DNA of 22,795 nucleotides from a virus, in the IMG/VR virus record IMGVR_UViG_3300003322_001221, positions 1-22,795 of that record; one strand, given 5' to 3'. The notes beneath the pieces are model-generated. The model saw only the letters and a program-made list of their open reading frames with translations, ran no database searches and was not told the origin of the DNA. Positions within the stretch are counted from its first letter, which is position 1. Every line of letters begins with the position of its first letter. A program made the translations under genes and the position numbers. Shown here piece by piece: positions 12,068 to 16,374 of this stretch.

Positions 12068-12553
12068 ATGACATTGCAAAAAAGGCCTACAGTTGGCGCA
12101 ATTTCTCAGGAATTGCTACAAAAAACTCAGGAAACGCATAATGCTATTGACTTAGAACGCGAAATGCAGAAAGAATATTTACAAGAATTAATTGCATGTA
12201 TAACTAATTGGCGGTCTAAATTTAATAAAGATTTTTTTGTCGTAGTGATAACCAAAAATGAAAAGTTAATGCCTAATGTCTTTAGGAACTATTTTATTCC
12301 TCGTTTCAGTTGTCCAACTCCTGATTATGATCAGTCAGTTTTTAAATATCATGCTGCTACTGAAGATGTAGAATATATCTGGTCGATACCATCCAAAGAT
12401 GCATGCATACATTTACTAAAAAATGCTCATGAAGTTCATAAAGACGAGCTTCAATTGTTGCACTACATTAAAGATTTTGCATCAGGAAAGCTTTACAAAT
12501 TAGCAAAAAAGTTGAATGGTGAAGCAGAAAGCACGTCTGAAATTGAACAATAA
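12068..12553 (+). CDS. Hypothetical head-region protein (161 aa)
   Basis: ATG 12068 follows AAAGAGG. A helical start (MTLQKRPTVGAISQELLQKT) leads to a mixed domain with KDFFVVVITKNEKLMPNVFR and YIWSIPSKDACIHLLKNAHE. Proteins with this 'W..P' pattern and length occur just before scaffold genes in related uncharacterised phages, as I recall it, but I can give no function. Its stop codon is part of the next gene's ribosome binding site (TAAAGGAG). Confidence 0.6.
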   Translation: MTLQKRPTVGAISQELLQKTQETHNAIDLEREMQKEYLQELIACITNWRSKFNKDFFVVVITKNEKLMPNVFRNYFIPRFSCPTPDYDQSVFKYHAATEDVEYIWSIPSKDACIHLLKNAHEVHKDELQLLHYIKDFASGKLYKLAKKLNGEAESTSEIEQ

Positions 12554-12563
12554 AGGAGAATGC

Positions 12564-13391
12564 ATGTCTGAATTAGATAGCACATTGCCACCATTGACAC
12601 CTGAAGCTCGAGCAGCAATGAATACATGGTCAAAAGATGATCAAAGCGTACAGCCAGAGACTGAAGCCGTAATAGATATTGAACCTAAACCACAAGAAAC
12701 ATCTGAGCAAATTGCGCAAACTCAAGAAGTAATTTCTGAATCAGTTAACGAATCAAATCATGACAGAAATTTTAAAATTCTGAGAGAAAAAGCGGCATTG
12801 GCTGATAAATTAGCTCGCGAACATGAAGCTGCTATGCAGAAGATTCGTGAATATGAGCAGATGTATCAAACTCAAAAACAAGCTCAAGAACCTGTAGATT
12901 CTGATGAGATAGAAATTGCTCCCGATGATTTGGCTGAAGGAAAGCATCTTAATAAGTTAGGAAAAAAACTACGTAAAATGGAAGAGCAATTAAAAGCATA
13001 TCAGCGCCAATCAGCTGACATGACTGCTGAAGCTCGCTTGCGCGCAGAATTTCCTGATTTTGATTCAGTTGTTACTGCTGATAATTTAACAACATTGCGT
13101 ACATTAAATCCAGAAATTGCAGAAACCATTCAATATTCGCCTGATCTTTACAAAAAGGCAGTTACTGCTTATAAAATAATTAAAAATATGGGAATTGATA
13201 AGCAAGAAAGTTATATTATTAATAAAGAACGTGCTGAAAAAAATATTGCAAAACCACGGCCTCTTGCATCAGTTTCACCCCAACACGGTGAAAGTCCTTT
13301 AAGTAAAGCAAATGCTTTTGCTAATGGATTAACGCCTGAACTACAAAAGCAATTACGAAGAGAAATGGAAGAGGCTCGTAAATCTATATAA
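12564..13391 (+). CDS. Putative scaffolding protein
   Basis: The protein has 275 residues, with no cysteine in the parts I examined. The first 75 residues are acidic, Gln/Glu/Pro-rich and likely disordered. A long coiled coil follows (about 80-170: DRNFKILREKAALADKLARE, then KIREYEQMYQTQKQAQEP and LNKLGKKLRKMEEQLKAYQR), then a compact region with EARLRAEFPDFDSVVTADNL, and a basic C-terminal helix (LQKQLRREMEEARKSI). An acidic, coiled-coil protein with a basic C-terminal helix directly upstream of the capsid gene is the standard scaffold layout; the basic end would touch the capsid protein. ATG 12564 is chosen for TAAAGGAGA. The scaffold role is inferred. Confidence 0.7.
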   Translation: MSELDSTLPPLTPEARAAMNTWSKDDQSVQPETEAVIDIEPKPQETSEQIAQTQEVISESVNESNHDRNFKILREKAALADKLAREHEAAMQKIREYEQMYQTQKQAQEPVDSDEIEIAPDDLAEGKHLNKLGKKLRKMEEQLKAYQRQSADMTAEARLRAEFPDFDSVVTADNLTTLRTLNPEIAETIQYSPDLYKKAVTAYKIIKNMGIDKQESYIINKERAEKNIAKPRPLASVSPQHGESPLSKANAFANGLTPELQKQLRREMEEARKSI

Positions 13392-13405: not shown

Positions 13406-13456
13406 CTTGATGCATCATTAAGTGTTTTCCTTTTTCTCATTCGATGATGCATCAAG
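13406..13456. repeat. Inverted repeat built of two copies of the palindrome TGATGCATCA
   Basis: CTTGATGCATCAT (13406-13418) and ATGATGCATCAAG (13444-13456) are perfect 13-base complements around a 25-base pyrimidine-rich loop. Each arm contains the 10-base palindrome TGATGCATCA, so the site can be one large hairpin or two identical dyads 37 bases apart. No T run follows, so it is not a simple terminator. Confidence 0.65.
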
Positions 13457-13488
13457 CATGATGCGATTCATATTTATATTCTCCGGAC

Positions 13489-13517
13489 GCCACCTTGTAA
13501 AAAAGGTGGTGTTTTTG
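13489..13517 (+). terminator. Rho-independent terminator overlapping the capsid promoter
   Basis: GCCACCTT (13489-13496) and AAGGTGGT (13503-13510) form an 8-bp stem with a short A-rich loop, then GTTTTTGT. It would stop transcripts from the scaffold side. Confidence 0.7.
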
Positions 13518-13524
13518 TTATACT
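13495..13524 (+). promoter_or_regulatory. Predicted promoter of the major capsid gene
   Basis: -35 box TTGTAA (13495-13500) lies in the terminator stem and loop. After an 18-base spacer comes the -10 box TATACT (13519-13524). The start would be near 13531, exactly where the structured leader begins. Confidence 0.5.
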
Positions 13525-13530
13525 CACCTA

Positions 13531-13619
13531 TGAGCTGTAATCGCGAAGTCGCTCATCGACGGGACCTTACGTGCCAGTGGTCCAGGCACAGAGCTGTAAG
13601 AGATTCGCTCCCTCACGTC
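13531..13619 (+). promoter_or_regulatory. Structured 5' leader RNA of the capsid gene
   Basis: The leader contains a dense set of complementary segments. Hairpin 1: TGAGC (13531-13535) with GCTCA (13551-13555). Central helix: CTTAC (13566-13570) with GTAAG (13596-13600), continuing into GTGCC (13571-13575) with GGCAC (13585-13589). Outer clamp: GACG (13558-13561) with CGTC (13616-13619). A second module GAGC (13591-13594) with GCTC (13607-13610) repeats hairpin 1, and both modules carry GAGCTGTAA. Since TTAC can pair with the GTAA of either module, alternative folds are possible. It is not a tRNA and matches no riboswitch I know. A Shine-Dalgarno AAAGGAGG (13653-13660) follows 34 bases later. 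Confidence 0.55.
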
Positions 13620-13665: not shown

Positions 13666-13701
13666 ATGTCCATTACGACAACGAGTACTTTACCAGCGCC
13701 T
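13666..13701 (+). CDS. Major capsid protein, exon 1 (12 codons)
   Basis: It starts at ATG 13666 behind AAAGGAGG and encodes MSITTTSTLPAP. Without splicing the frame ends two codons into the intron (TAA at 13708). The exon ends in GCGCCT; the terminal T forms the conserved U-G pair of a group I 5' splice site with the guide GGGCGC at 13714-13719. Joined to exon 2 it gives ...TLPAP-VQQSFSYK..., which fits the N-terminus of this capsid family as I know it. Confidence 0.82.
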
Positions 13702-14411
13702 AAACCTTAATATGGGCGCAATAAACCATAGGTGATTACATGGAAAGTCTAAACATAAAATCATTGGATTGCTATGCTCATACAGGAAGTGTATTAAGTT
13801 TAGTAAATGGATATTTTATGCATGACAACCAGAGCCAAACGCATTGGATTTATGCCGCGGCCATAATGGATTCAGATGGATGTTTTATGATTAATAGATA
13901 TAAGCGTGGGGCAAGATATGATTATCTCGCAACGATTAAAATAACCATGGTTAATAATGGTTCTATTAATTACATCATGAATTCTAGTGGCTTAGGTTAC
14001 GTAAATATCAATGGCATTCGTACATCACGTCCTTATAGTTTGCCGTTATATGAATACCGTATAACCAACCGAAATGATTTAATAATTTTTCTTACAGCTA
14101 TCATGCCATATTTGCAGAATAAGAAAGAGCGCGCAGAGCATTTGTTAAATTATTGTAATAAAATTGGTTATAAGCCTCATGGTCAACGGCATATTAAAAT
14201 GACTGATGAAGAATTACAATTTCGAGAGGATTCGTATTTAAAAATGCGAAAGCTCAATAAAATTAAAGTAGGCGCAACGACTAAGTCCTATGGACCTGAG
14301 AAGGTATGCGATAGTCTTATCTCATAAGAAATTATGAGAGGATAGATCGAAGTATCTGTCCCGCCAGAAATGGTCAGTAGGGTTAATAGCTAACCCGAAA
14401 GTAAAAGAATG
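13702..14411 (+). mobile_element. Group I self-splicing intron in the major capsid gene
   Basis: The intron is 710 nt. Visible helices: P1, exon GCGCCT (13696-13701) with guide GGGCGC (13714-13719), six pairs with U-G at the splice site; P3, CCATAGG (13726-13732) with CCTATGG (14287-14293), seven perfect pairs; P7, GACTA (14279-14283) with TAGTC (14312-14316). The segment CAACGACTA (14275-14283) matches the conserved R element and AAGGTATGCGATAGTC resembles the S element. Three hairpins near the 3' end are P9-like: CTTAT/ATAAG, GGATAGAT/ATCTGTCC and GGGTTA/TAACCC. The intron ends in G (14411), as group I introns do. I could not resolve P4-P6. It carries a homing-endonuclease gene. Confidence 0.9.
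13740..14327 (+). CDS. LAGLIDADG-type homing endonuclease of the group I intron
   Basis: It encodes 195 residues with a single LAGLIDADG-like motif IYAAAIMDSDGCF (37-49), aligning as A-A-A-I-M-D-S-D-G, with D46 at the catalytic position. A single motif implies a homodimer and a near-palindromic target. Downstream is the usual beta-sheet saddle (YDYLATIKITMVNNGSINYI and PLYEYRITNRNDLIIFLTAI), then a helix with LQNKKERAEHLLNYC. Its role is to cut intronless capsid alleles so that repair copies the intron in. The Shine-Dalgarno AGGTG lies inside the P3 strand, so folded intron would hide it. The C-terminal codons overlap the R/P7/S core. The ORF is intact, so homing may still be active. Confidence 0.88.
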   Translation: MESLNIKSLDCYAHTGSVLSLVNGYFMHDNQSQTHWIYAAAIMDSDGCFMINRYKRGARYDYLATIKITMVNNGSINYIMNSSGLGYVNINGIRTSRPYSLPLYEYRITNRNDLIIFLTAIMPYLQNKKERAEHLLNYCNKIGYKPHGQRHIKMTDEELQFREDSYLKMRKLNKIKVGATTKSYGPEKVCDSLIS

Positions 14412-15323
14412 GTTCAGCAAAGCTTTAGCTATAAACTGCTATCAGTGCCGGTACCAAATATGATCCATAAAATACCTGCAATGTTAAAGAATATGCCTCG
14501 TAACGGTGGTACAACCCTTCGTATGCGTCGTTACAATCCATTACCAACTGCTATGGTTCCACTAGGAAATTCTGGTGTAACTCCTCCTCCATCAAATTTA
14601 ACTGCAGTCGATATCGATGCAACAATTAGTTTTTATGGTCTCTATGTTCAATTGAATGAACAAGTGACGTTGCAAAACCAGGACCCTGTGTTGAATGAGT
14701 GCGCGGCTCGTCTTGGTGTATCATTACGTCAAACTGAAGATCAATTGACTCGTGATATGCTTGCAGCAACCGCATCATTTATTAACTGCACCGGCGGTGT
14801 TAATGGTGACAACCCAACAGAAATTACACGCTCAGATGTTGATGAAGTGGTAAGAACATTGCTTAACAACAATGCGTACACCATCATGGATAACATTGAG
14901 GGTGAAGACAAATTCGGTACAGCTCCAGTTCGTGATGCTTATTTTGCGTTATGTTCAACAAACTTAACTGGTAATTTGGACAACGTGGCCGGATTTATTC
15001 AAAAGAATCAATACCCAGCTCCTATGAATGCTCTACGTTCTGAATGGGGTGCAATTGGAAACCTTCGTTTCTTGGTATCATCCATTGGTTCGGTAACGGC
15101 AAATGCTTCTCTTTTAGGCGCTAATGTATACAACATTTTCTGTTGTGGCCTTGAAGCATATGCGTGCATTCAACAAGATGGATATAGTGCAAGCTTTATC
15201 TATAGACCGCCAATATATGATGGACCCTTGGCTCTTAATGCTTCAGTTGGTTACAAATTTGCTGAAGTGCCGCGTATTCTCAATGATCAATGGGTTATTA
15301 ACTTACGTGCAACTTTAGCGTAA
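14412..15323 (+). CDS. Major capsid protein (N4-gp56 family), exon 2
   Basis: Exon 2 supplies 303 residues from VQQSFSYKLLSVPVPNM; the spliced protein has 315. Recognisable stretches are PRNGGTTLRMRRYNPL, DIDATISFYGLYVQLNEQVT, LGVSLRQTEDQLTRDMLAAT (the long spine helix), GDNPTEITRSDVDEVVRTLL and near the end GYKFAEVPRILNDQWVINLR. These are hallmark patterns of N4-gp56-type capsid proteins with the HK97 fold. An in-frame ATG occupies the last three bases of the intron (14409-14411), so a simple gene call would start there; no good Shine-Dalgarno supports that start. Position after a scaffold gene and before structural genes agrees. Confidence 0.92.
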   Translation, partial: VQQSFSYKLLSVPVPNMIHKIPAMLKNMPRNGGTTLRMRRYNPLPTAMVPLGNSGVTPPPSNLTAVDIDATISFYGLYVQLNEQVTLQNQDPVLNECAARLGVSLRQTEDQLTRDMLAATASFINCTGGVNGDNPTEITRSDVDEVVRTLLNNNAYTIMDNIEGEDKFGTAPVRDAYFALCSTNLTGNLDNVAGFIQKNQYPAPMNALRSEWGAIGNLRFLVSSIGSVTANASLLGANVYNIFCCGLEAYACIQQDGYSASFIYRPPIYDGPLALNASVGYKFAEVPRILNDQWVINLRATLA

Positions 15324-15333
15324 AGGAGAAAAC

Positions 15334-16374
15334 ATGGCATATAATACCGTTATTCAACAAGGTAATTTTGTATCTACGGGCACTGCCACAACCATTAAAT
15401 TGGCTTCTGGCATAGATTGGATGGAAGTTATTAACTGGACAAATACCACTAATCCAAATGATTCTGAACAATACGGATTCAGATATTATTGGCAATTGGG
15501 TATGGATAATAATGATGGGTTGATGGATTTTTATGACAAAAATCTATCAGCTGGTGCTACTTATACAAGCACTAATACCACGGTAGCTATTAGTGAATTT
15601 GTAGGTGCTAATGGATTCACTTATGTTGATAGTTCAGTACAAAATCCTGGAAATCGTGTCGCAATTACCGCAGTAAGTACGGCAAATCCTCCTGTAGTAT
15701 CCACGGGAAGCACAGCTGGCTTATCTGCTGGCTCTATCGTTCGTCTTACTAATACTACCGGTGCTTTGCAATTGGGCGGAATTGATTTCAGCATTGATAC
15801 TATTGTTGCTAGCACGAGTTTTAGGTTGCCGTATATGGCGCAATTAAGTGCAGCTGCAACAGCTGGATATTATCGTCTTATTGCATTTAATCCTCTTTTT
15901 TATCCTAGCACCAGATTTATTTCCAAGGTTACAAAGGCTTCTCAAGCTGTAGTTACATTGACAGTTTCTATAGTTGAGAATTCACGTGCATGGCAAATAG
16001 GACAGAAAATTAGATTTAATATTCCCGCTGAATATGGCATGGTTGAGCTTGATGGTGTTCAAGCAAATATTGTGGCAGTTGATTATGTTAATAATACAAT
16101 TACTATCGATGTTGATTCGACTTCATTTACCACATTTGCATTCCCATTAACGGCGGCTGTTCCGTTTACGCCTGCTCAGGCTATTCCTTTTGGTGAAACT
16201 GCCGATGCTAATATTGCAAATCCTAATTTATTGGATGATTCAGTAATTAATACTGGATACACAGGCATGCTTCTTGCGGCTGGAAATAATGGTCCTGCAG
16301 GAGCAGAGGGAGATATAATTTATTGGAGAGCTGGTAAATCCTTCAATAATTATGTCAATGTATTAGGTAGCTAA
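15334..16374 (+). CDS. Virion protein with two FCCH-like beta modules (346 aa)
   Basis: The protein is beta-rich and Thr/Ser/Asn-rich, typical of a surface or head-decoration protein. Residues 108-171 and 194-270 are two related modules with the pattern I..V..A.P.VV....(10)G..VR......G...L.G....I......TF.L; the second reads FISKVTKASQAVVTLT, then IGQKIRFNIPAEYGMVELDG, ending IDVDSTSFTTF. The pattern is that annotated as 'ubiquitin-activating E1 FCCH domain' in many phages. A third copy forms most of the gene at 16875. TAAAGGAG at the capsid stop is its ribosome binding site, so it is co-expressed with capsid. A decoration or tail-surface role is inferred. Confidence 0.65.
   Translation: MAYNTVIQQGNFVSTGTATTIKLASGIDWMEVINWTNTTNPNDSEQYGFRYYWQLGMDNNDGLMDFYDKNLSAGATYTSTNTTVAISEFVGANGFTYVDSSVQNPGNRVAITAVSTANPPVVSTGSTAGLSAGSIVRLTNTTGALQLGGIDFSIDTIVASTSFRLPYMAQLSAAATAGYYRLIAFNPLFYPSTRFISKVTKASQAVVTLTVSIVENSRAWQIGQKIRFNIPAEYGMVELDGVQANIVAVDYVNNTITIDVDSTSFTTFAFPLTAAVPFTPAQAIPFGETADANIANPNLLDDSVINTGYTGMLLAAGNNGPAGAEGDIIYWRAGKSFNNYVNVLGS

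Follow-up and report, generated by a model that had tools for sequence, protein, structure and literature searches.

Phage major capsid protein (MCP) genes are known to carry introns. In mycobacteriophage LittleE (Cluster J), splicing of an MCP intron has been proven by RT-PCR and N-terminal protein sequencing (PMC3706429), and crAss-like Delta/Zeta phages have group I introns in the MCP and other core genes, with one Zeta MCP split into five fragments (PMC7886860). In Jug phages the mean number of group I introns per genome is 18.5 (PMC12363816). Splicing can also depend on physiology, as the splicing of T4 introns is reduced in stationary-phase cells and when translation is absent, in the work of Sandegren & Sjoberg 2007 as cited in PMC11878797 and PMC3984707.

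Here we describe a 710-nt insert in the MCP gene of an IMG/VR virus record (the window, the whole 22,795-base stretch analyzed, which encodes a P22-like portal gene and an MCP). Comparison with related sequences indicates that 13702–14411 is almost certainly a real, well-bounded group I intron. The LittleE MCP, like that of the window, has an intron (~820 nt) with a predicted LAGLIDADG ORF, a U at the exon end, and a G at the intron end, but it belongs to a siphovirus of high-GC Gram-positives, its ORF lies on the opposite strand, and its intron is single. The predicted MCP introns of crAss-like phages are likewise group I, but occur in large gut phages (145–192 kb, an intron-dense family) and across many genes, whereas those of the window's group were found mainly in the MCP. 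T4 td, nrdB, and nrdD also contain group I introns with endonuclease ORFs looped from the core and an in-frame stop near the 5′ splice site (see also PMC2988022, PMC11878797), but these interrupted genes belong to nucleotide metabolism and the td endonuclease reportedly belongs to another family. The initial annotation of this locus was right about the intron, its bounds, and the restored MCP. Its description of the location as unusual is overstated for phages in general, given the LittleE and crAss-like MCP introns, and it overlooked both the endonuclease ORF inside the intron and the many further intron sites in relatives.

Stenotrophomonas phage StenR_269 (OR838459) encodes a related endonuclease (30%), annotated "intron homing endonuclease," directly 5′ of a related MCP (25%). 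It does not qualify as a cultured phage with this capsid intron: codons 1–6 of its capsid gene (MSFSGM) occur in an extra copy ahead of the endonuclease gene (L092:4441–4943), behind which the capsid gene restarts intact. As the MCP is read from an unbroken frame downstream of the insert, the insert is probably unspliced.

Removal of the insert from the window restores the MCP of the family. Exon 1 follows a Shine-Dalgarno sequence, AAAGGAGG, and past its last codon the frame reads AAA CCU UAA, an in-frame stop (13708–13710) in the P1 loop. Joining the exons gives a 315-residue MCP, and the exon 2 product matches Pfam Phage_capsid_4 (29.1 bits) and PHROG phrog_1357, major head protein (2.4e-30). 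The closest 80 MCP relatives in IMG/VR, a set skewed to intact genes because it was ranked by exon 2 match, include 79 with enough upstream sequence, and nearly all of these 79 have the uninterrupted junction M(S/A/P)ITTTSTLPAPVQQSFSYKLL in one frame; 5/79 have other insertions near the MCP N-terminus (L026, L027, L029, L031, and L075). This junction is the predicted one, so excising 13702–14411 restores the family MCP exactly, and alignment to intronless relatives agrees with the initial annotation's junction after codon 12 and 315-residue product. An intein was excluded by the UAA within the first 9 nt of the insert and by a Pfam scan that found no intein domain.

Features of the split capsid gene, its intron, and the intron-encoded endonuclease in the window
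Feature	Coordinates	Strand	Evidence or remark
MCP exon 1, codons 1–12 (MSITTTSTLPAP)	13666–13701	+	Joined directly to exon 2 in intact relatives
Group I intron, 710 nt	13702–14411	+	Junction in relatives, covariation, left-out covariance model
MCP exon 2, codons 13–315 and stop	14412–15323	+	Phage_capsid_4 and phrog_1357 matches
P1, GCGCCU 13696–13701 (exon) / GGGCGC 13714–13719 (internal guide)	13696–13719	+	U.G at splice site
P3 5′ strand, CCAUAGG	13726–13732	+	Both-side changes in 7/7 pairs
P4 5′ strand, UGG, partner CCA 13829–13831	13741–13743	+	Invariant; placed by topology
P5 5′ strand, partner 13814–13826, includes endonuclease start codon	13747–13760	+	Partial support
Predicted LAGLIDADG homing endonuclease gene, 169 aa, in loop L6	13818–14327	+	Pfam, profile, fold
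P6 5′ strand, GCC, partner GGC 14271–14273	13834–13836	+	23/23 paired
P6 3′ strand, GGC, then J6/7 and R element	14271–14273	+	Comparison of 23 introns
P7 5′ strand, GACUA	14279–14283	+	Covariation alignment
P3 3′ strand, CCUAUGG	14287–14293	+	Pairs with 13726–13732
P8 hairpin, ACCU-GAGA-AGGU	14294–14305	+	Between P3′ and P7′
P7 3′ strand, UAGUC	14312–14316	+	Covariation alignment
P9, P9.1, P9.2, P9.3 hairpins	14321–14396	+	Covariation in P9, P9.1, and P9.3
Terminal (omega) G	14411	+	G at end of nearly all homologous introns

In an alignment of 23 homologous introns, P1, P3, P6, P7, P8, P9, P9.1, and P9.3 are all supported by covariation. The aligned introns interrupt site 12.0 (after codon 12) or site 12.2 (2 nt downstream), and the alignment covers sequence outside the endonuclease gene. 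P1 is paired in 137/138 cells (99%), and its guide tracks the site, with GGGCGC for GCGCCU exon ends (12.0) and GCCGG(N) for CCGGU-type exon ends (12.2). P3 is paired in 159/161 cells, compared with 27–67% for controls in which the partner was slid by 1–3 columns. All 115 P7 cells are paired, including one double change (GAUCA/UGAUC in L083), as are all 92 P8 cells, where 4/4 pairs vary on both sides. P6 is maintained in every intron through exchanges of G-C/A-U and C-G/G-C/U-A, and covariation is also seen for P9, P9.1, and P9.3. P4 is without covariation support because it is invariant across the homologous introns; within P5, CAUAAA/UUUAUG is mostly paired with limited covariation, and the GUC/GAC part is weaker. 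An alternative UGGA/UCUA hairpin as P5 was set aside for a P4/P5/P6 topology with P6 covariation, though the handful of changes observed is compatible with either. The intron therefore has the P3–P7 pseudoknotted core, with P8 between P3′ and P7′, by which group I introns are recognized, and a P4–P6 domain identified by compensation in P6, topology in P4, and, in part, P5. The P1 U.G, perfect P3, P7, and terminal G reported in the initial annotation are all present, and the comparison of 23 introns backs P1, P3, and P7. Given this anatomy, the capsid transcript would fold into P1–P9, an external guanosine would attack after U13701, exon 1 would then attack after G14411, and the exons would be ligated in frame to encode the 315-residue protein.

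General covariance models score these introns poorly. Rfam at the gathering threshold gave no match in the window, and RF00028, the model proposed for the search at the outset, scores the window intron at 17.1 bits (E = 0.1) against a cut-off of 50, which is a detection threshold and not a definition of group I introns. Related MCP introns reach 42.2 bits (E = 2.8e-11) with RF00028 and are likewise under the cut-off. On the other hand, a specific 3′-core model built from 22 relatives, with the window left out, matched 14227–14350 at 135 bits (E = 4.8e-23). The missing Rfam match at threshold is thus explained by a low score, not by absence of the intron.

The intron carries a predicted endonuclease gene that shares sequence with the ribozyme. 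The listed ORF spans 13740–14327. A start at 13740 was rejected, as the RNA of 13740–13817 is conserved but the ATG is not (several relatives have TTG at 13740); the conserved start is ATG 13818, where relatives begin MQDNQxQTH, mostly behind a Shine-Dalgarno sequence. The translation, scanned from 13740, matches PF00961 (LAGLIDADG_1; 23.5 bits, above cut-off), and an alignment profile matches I-MsoI, I-CvuI, and I-CreI (2.8e-10 to an I-MsoI construct). An AlphaFold2 model (mean pLDDT 81) matches I-CreI at E = 1e-7, with I-CvuI and I-MsoI close behind (TM 0.64–0.71 over these fold matches), and the LAGLIDADG motif together with the modeled alpha-beta-beta-alpha-beta-beta-alpha fold suggests an I-CreI-type enzyme. 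Like the homodimer-type I-CreI, I-MsoI, and I-CvuI, the window protein has a single LAGLIDADG motif, ~170 residues, and the same predicted fold, and it is intron-encoded; its identity to them is low (about 16–23%), its target is different, and its activity is a prediction. The start codon lies within P5 and codon 6 within P6, while the C-terminal codons form P6′, P7, P3′, P8, and part of P9, with the stop inside P9. In homologues codon 6 is AGG, AGC, AAC, AAG, or AAU, matched to an altered P6 partner. Because the gene overlaps the catalytic core at both ends, translation and RNA folding should compete for one RNA and exclude each other on any given molecule.

Patterns among relatives suggest that the intron is mobile. 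At site 12.0, endonuclease identity and MCP identity are uncorrelated (Spearman rho = −0.10; 66 pairs, 12 introns with full endonucleases), which points to horizontal homing, while at site 12.2 endonuclease identity follows MCP identity (Spearman 0.78; 9 introns). For example, L083 is 63% identical to the window in the MCP and 66% in the endonuclease, and L090 is 92% and 46% identical, respectively. The exon end GCGCCT (RNA GCGCCU) occurs in 10/11 distinct 12.0 alleles vs. 0/73 alleles without an intron there, an association that could reflect co-conversion on homing or, alternatively, selection for P1 pairing. Degenerate copies, including a 100-aa endonuclease (L126), a broken frame (L113), and a 240-nt intron with no ORF (L189), appear as predicted under a homing-decay cycle. 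From these patterns we infer endonuclease cutting, a target site, and homing for the window intron: the I-CreI-like endonuclease would be made from unspliced or excised RNA and would cut intronless capsid alleles of co-infecting phages, and repair would copy the intron and flanking exon sequence into the cut allele.

Introns are frequent in the capsid genes of related phages. A scan of 2.9 million IMG/VR contigs for the core DNA pattern (R-P7-P8-P7′) gave 35 loci, all except L102 and L123 also with a capsid match (tblastn). So as not to select for introns, we picked loci by the portal gene and mapped MCP exons by spliced protein-to-DNA alignment. Complete MCPs numbered 35: 16 had no interruption, and of the other 19 all but one were interrupted at two or more places; dereplication leaves 32 MCPs, of which 15 are intact, 1 has one insertion, and 16 have two to five (17 interrupted). 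The same crude criterion finds the terminase gene broken in about 4/51 loci and the portal in 0/80, the latter figure being biased because the portal was the bait. Over all loci we mapped 105 distinct insertions, with up to 5 per MCP gene, and in 83 of them (79%) a guide close to the start of the intron pairs with 6 or more exon bases, vs. 8.6% for random exon ends; this is a fairer control than counts of T..G boundaries, which are not independent evidence because a T ending an exon and a G ending an intron are favored in the aligner's scoring, but it also requires T. A separate filter (P1 of at least 5 pairs plus terminal G) retained 83 introns at 28 nominal sites (imprecise between MCP residues 86 and 98), and 15 sites have at least 2 distinct introns. 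The site-12 model matched 34 places in 1.02 Mb of portal-anchored loci (E below 0.01), 31 within mapped capsid introns, 2 overlapping an intron edge, and 1 just past a truncated capsid exon. Since this model finds introns elsewhere in the capsid gene, those at many sites belong to one structural class.

Several further observations concern individual loci. Intron counts in the portal-anchored loci (L131–L210) are bimodal, with 15/1/16 genes having zero, one, or at least two introns vs. 7.8/11.0/13.1 under a Poisson distribution (mean 1.41), which could reflect phylogeny. One contig (L082/L111/L178), together with L182 and L193, has 4–5 mapped capsid insertions with exons down to 22–26 nt between them. 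The same intron core occurs near codon 7 of a capsid gene just ~27% identical to that of the window (L104:9927–10676, P1 ACGGU/GCCGU), and a capsid relative at 88% (L129, contig PLSG01000101, binned as Parachlamydiaceae) has a 1130-nt intron at site 144. Host assignment gave no consistent answer, as the four genome contigs with MCP relatives fall in unrelated bins. Breaks in the gene at 15334–16371 were considered as introns and rejected; overlapping query ranges suggest tandem paralogues instead.

The capsid leaders also contain a recurrent element. In 5′ leaders of relatives (L052:2463–2702; L026 and L010 upstream of the MCP), a small putative H-type pseudoknot is repeated in tandem two to five times, with the motif NNCG-UAY-S2-CU-CGNN-A-S2′ (for example, GGCG-UAUC-AUGC-CU-CGCC-A-GCAU in L026) and a degenerate version at 13521–13610 in the window. 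At least two copies are present in 50% of 99 capsid leaders vs. 4% of dinucleotide-shuffled sequences and 8% of segments taken from elsewhere in those loci, in a scan designed after viewing some of the sequences; the element has no Rfam match. Two terminator-like hairpins lie at 13448–13514, between the gene at 12516–13391 and the capsid leader, and a sigma-70-like site at 13495–13524, promoter matches being at chance level. The capsid may have its own transcript.

We considered whether the insert could be anything other than a spliced mobile intron. Translation of the capsid from ATG 14409, in the last codon of the insert, would dispense with splicing and make exon 1 a dead leftover. This in-frame ATG (14409–14411) opens a 304-residue ORF, and the endonuclease-bearing insertion of StenR_269 does precede an intact MCP, with the duplicated codons upstream. 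However, the start is not conserved, reading ACG in L101, TAG in L115, AAG in L130, and GTG in L085 and L189, and 14395–14405 contains no Shine-Dalgarno sequence, AAAGGAGG instead preceding exon 1. Other introns fall in the middle of the protein (for example, at sites 79, 104, 144, and 184), and covariation across a full group I core would be unexplained, making this reading highly improbable. We give just as little credence to the idea that the genome is dying or misassembled and the insert is a broken intron or a disruption of the reading frame. The locus is a single metagenomic contig with a low Rfam score, but none of the helices tested is disrupted, the endonuclease frame and exon 2 are both open, exon 2 is conserved, and homologous introns turn up again in independent samples.

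It is also unlikely, if less remote, that the intron is retained as a regulator, with splicing making virion production conditional on host state (GTP, translation, temperature). In T4, intron splicing varies with translation and with the state of growth (Sandegren & Sjoberg 2007, as cited in PMC11878797), so such a check, which the initial annotation had raised, is plausible in the window phage by analogy. The in-frame UAA lies 6 nt into the window intron, and 40/83 introns have a stop in frame no more than 10 nt from the 5′ splice site, compared with 23 and 19 in the other frames; a simpler reading is that early stops keep ribosomes off the ribozyme. Moreover, 15/32 dereplicated relatives have intact capsid genes and intron presence at any given site is patchy and horizontally scattered. 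With about half of related capsid genes intronless in this scattered pattern, a mobile element fits better than a conserved regulator.

As far as sequence comparison can tell, what is new here is scale: about half of the capsid genes in this phage group are interrupted, mostly at two or more places. Our literature search, which most subscription papers lay outside, found no soil podovirus report of a multi-intron capsid gene. One possibility, which we advance tentatively and with some doubt, is that related group I introns land preferentially in the capsid gene of this uncultivated group of soil podoviruses (some two dozen or more positions, up to five insertions, and exons down to 22–26 nt); capsid production would then need several ordered self-splicing events, with possible rate or host-state control of virion assembly.

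With the window intron, the few introns known from capsid genes gain another example backed by covariation. Of more use is the wider pattern, in which one conserved, highly expressed gene has related introns at many sites and the portal has none in the sample, in a soil phage group with small genomes (about 35–40 kb where near complete). Gene callers will miss or truncate such capsid proteins in metagenomes, and the general Rfam model scores the introns under threshold. The relatives form a natural series, from 0 to 5 introns with and without endonuclease, that bears on why introns accumulate in one gene, on how ribozyme and endonuclease share sequence, and on the cost of splicing to a virion gene. 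What deserves follow-up is this crowding of related introns into a single family of capsid genes.
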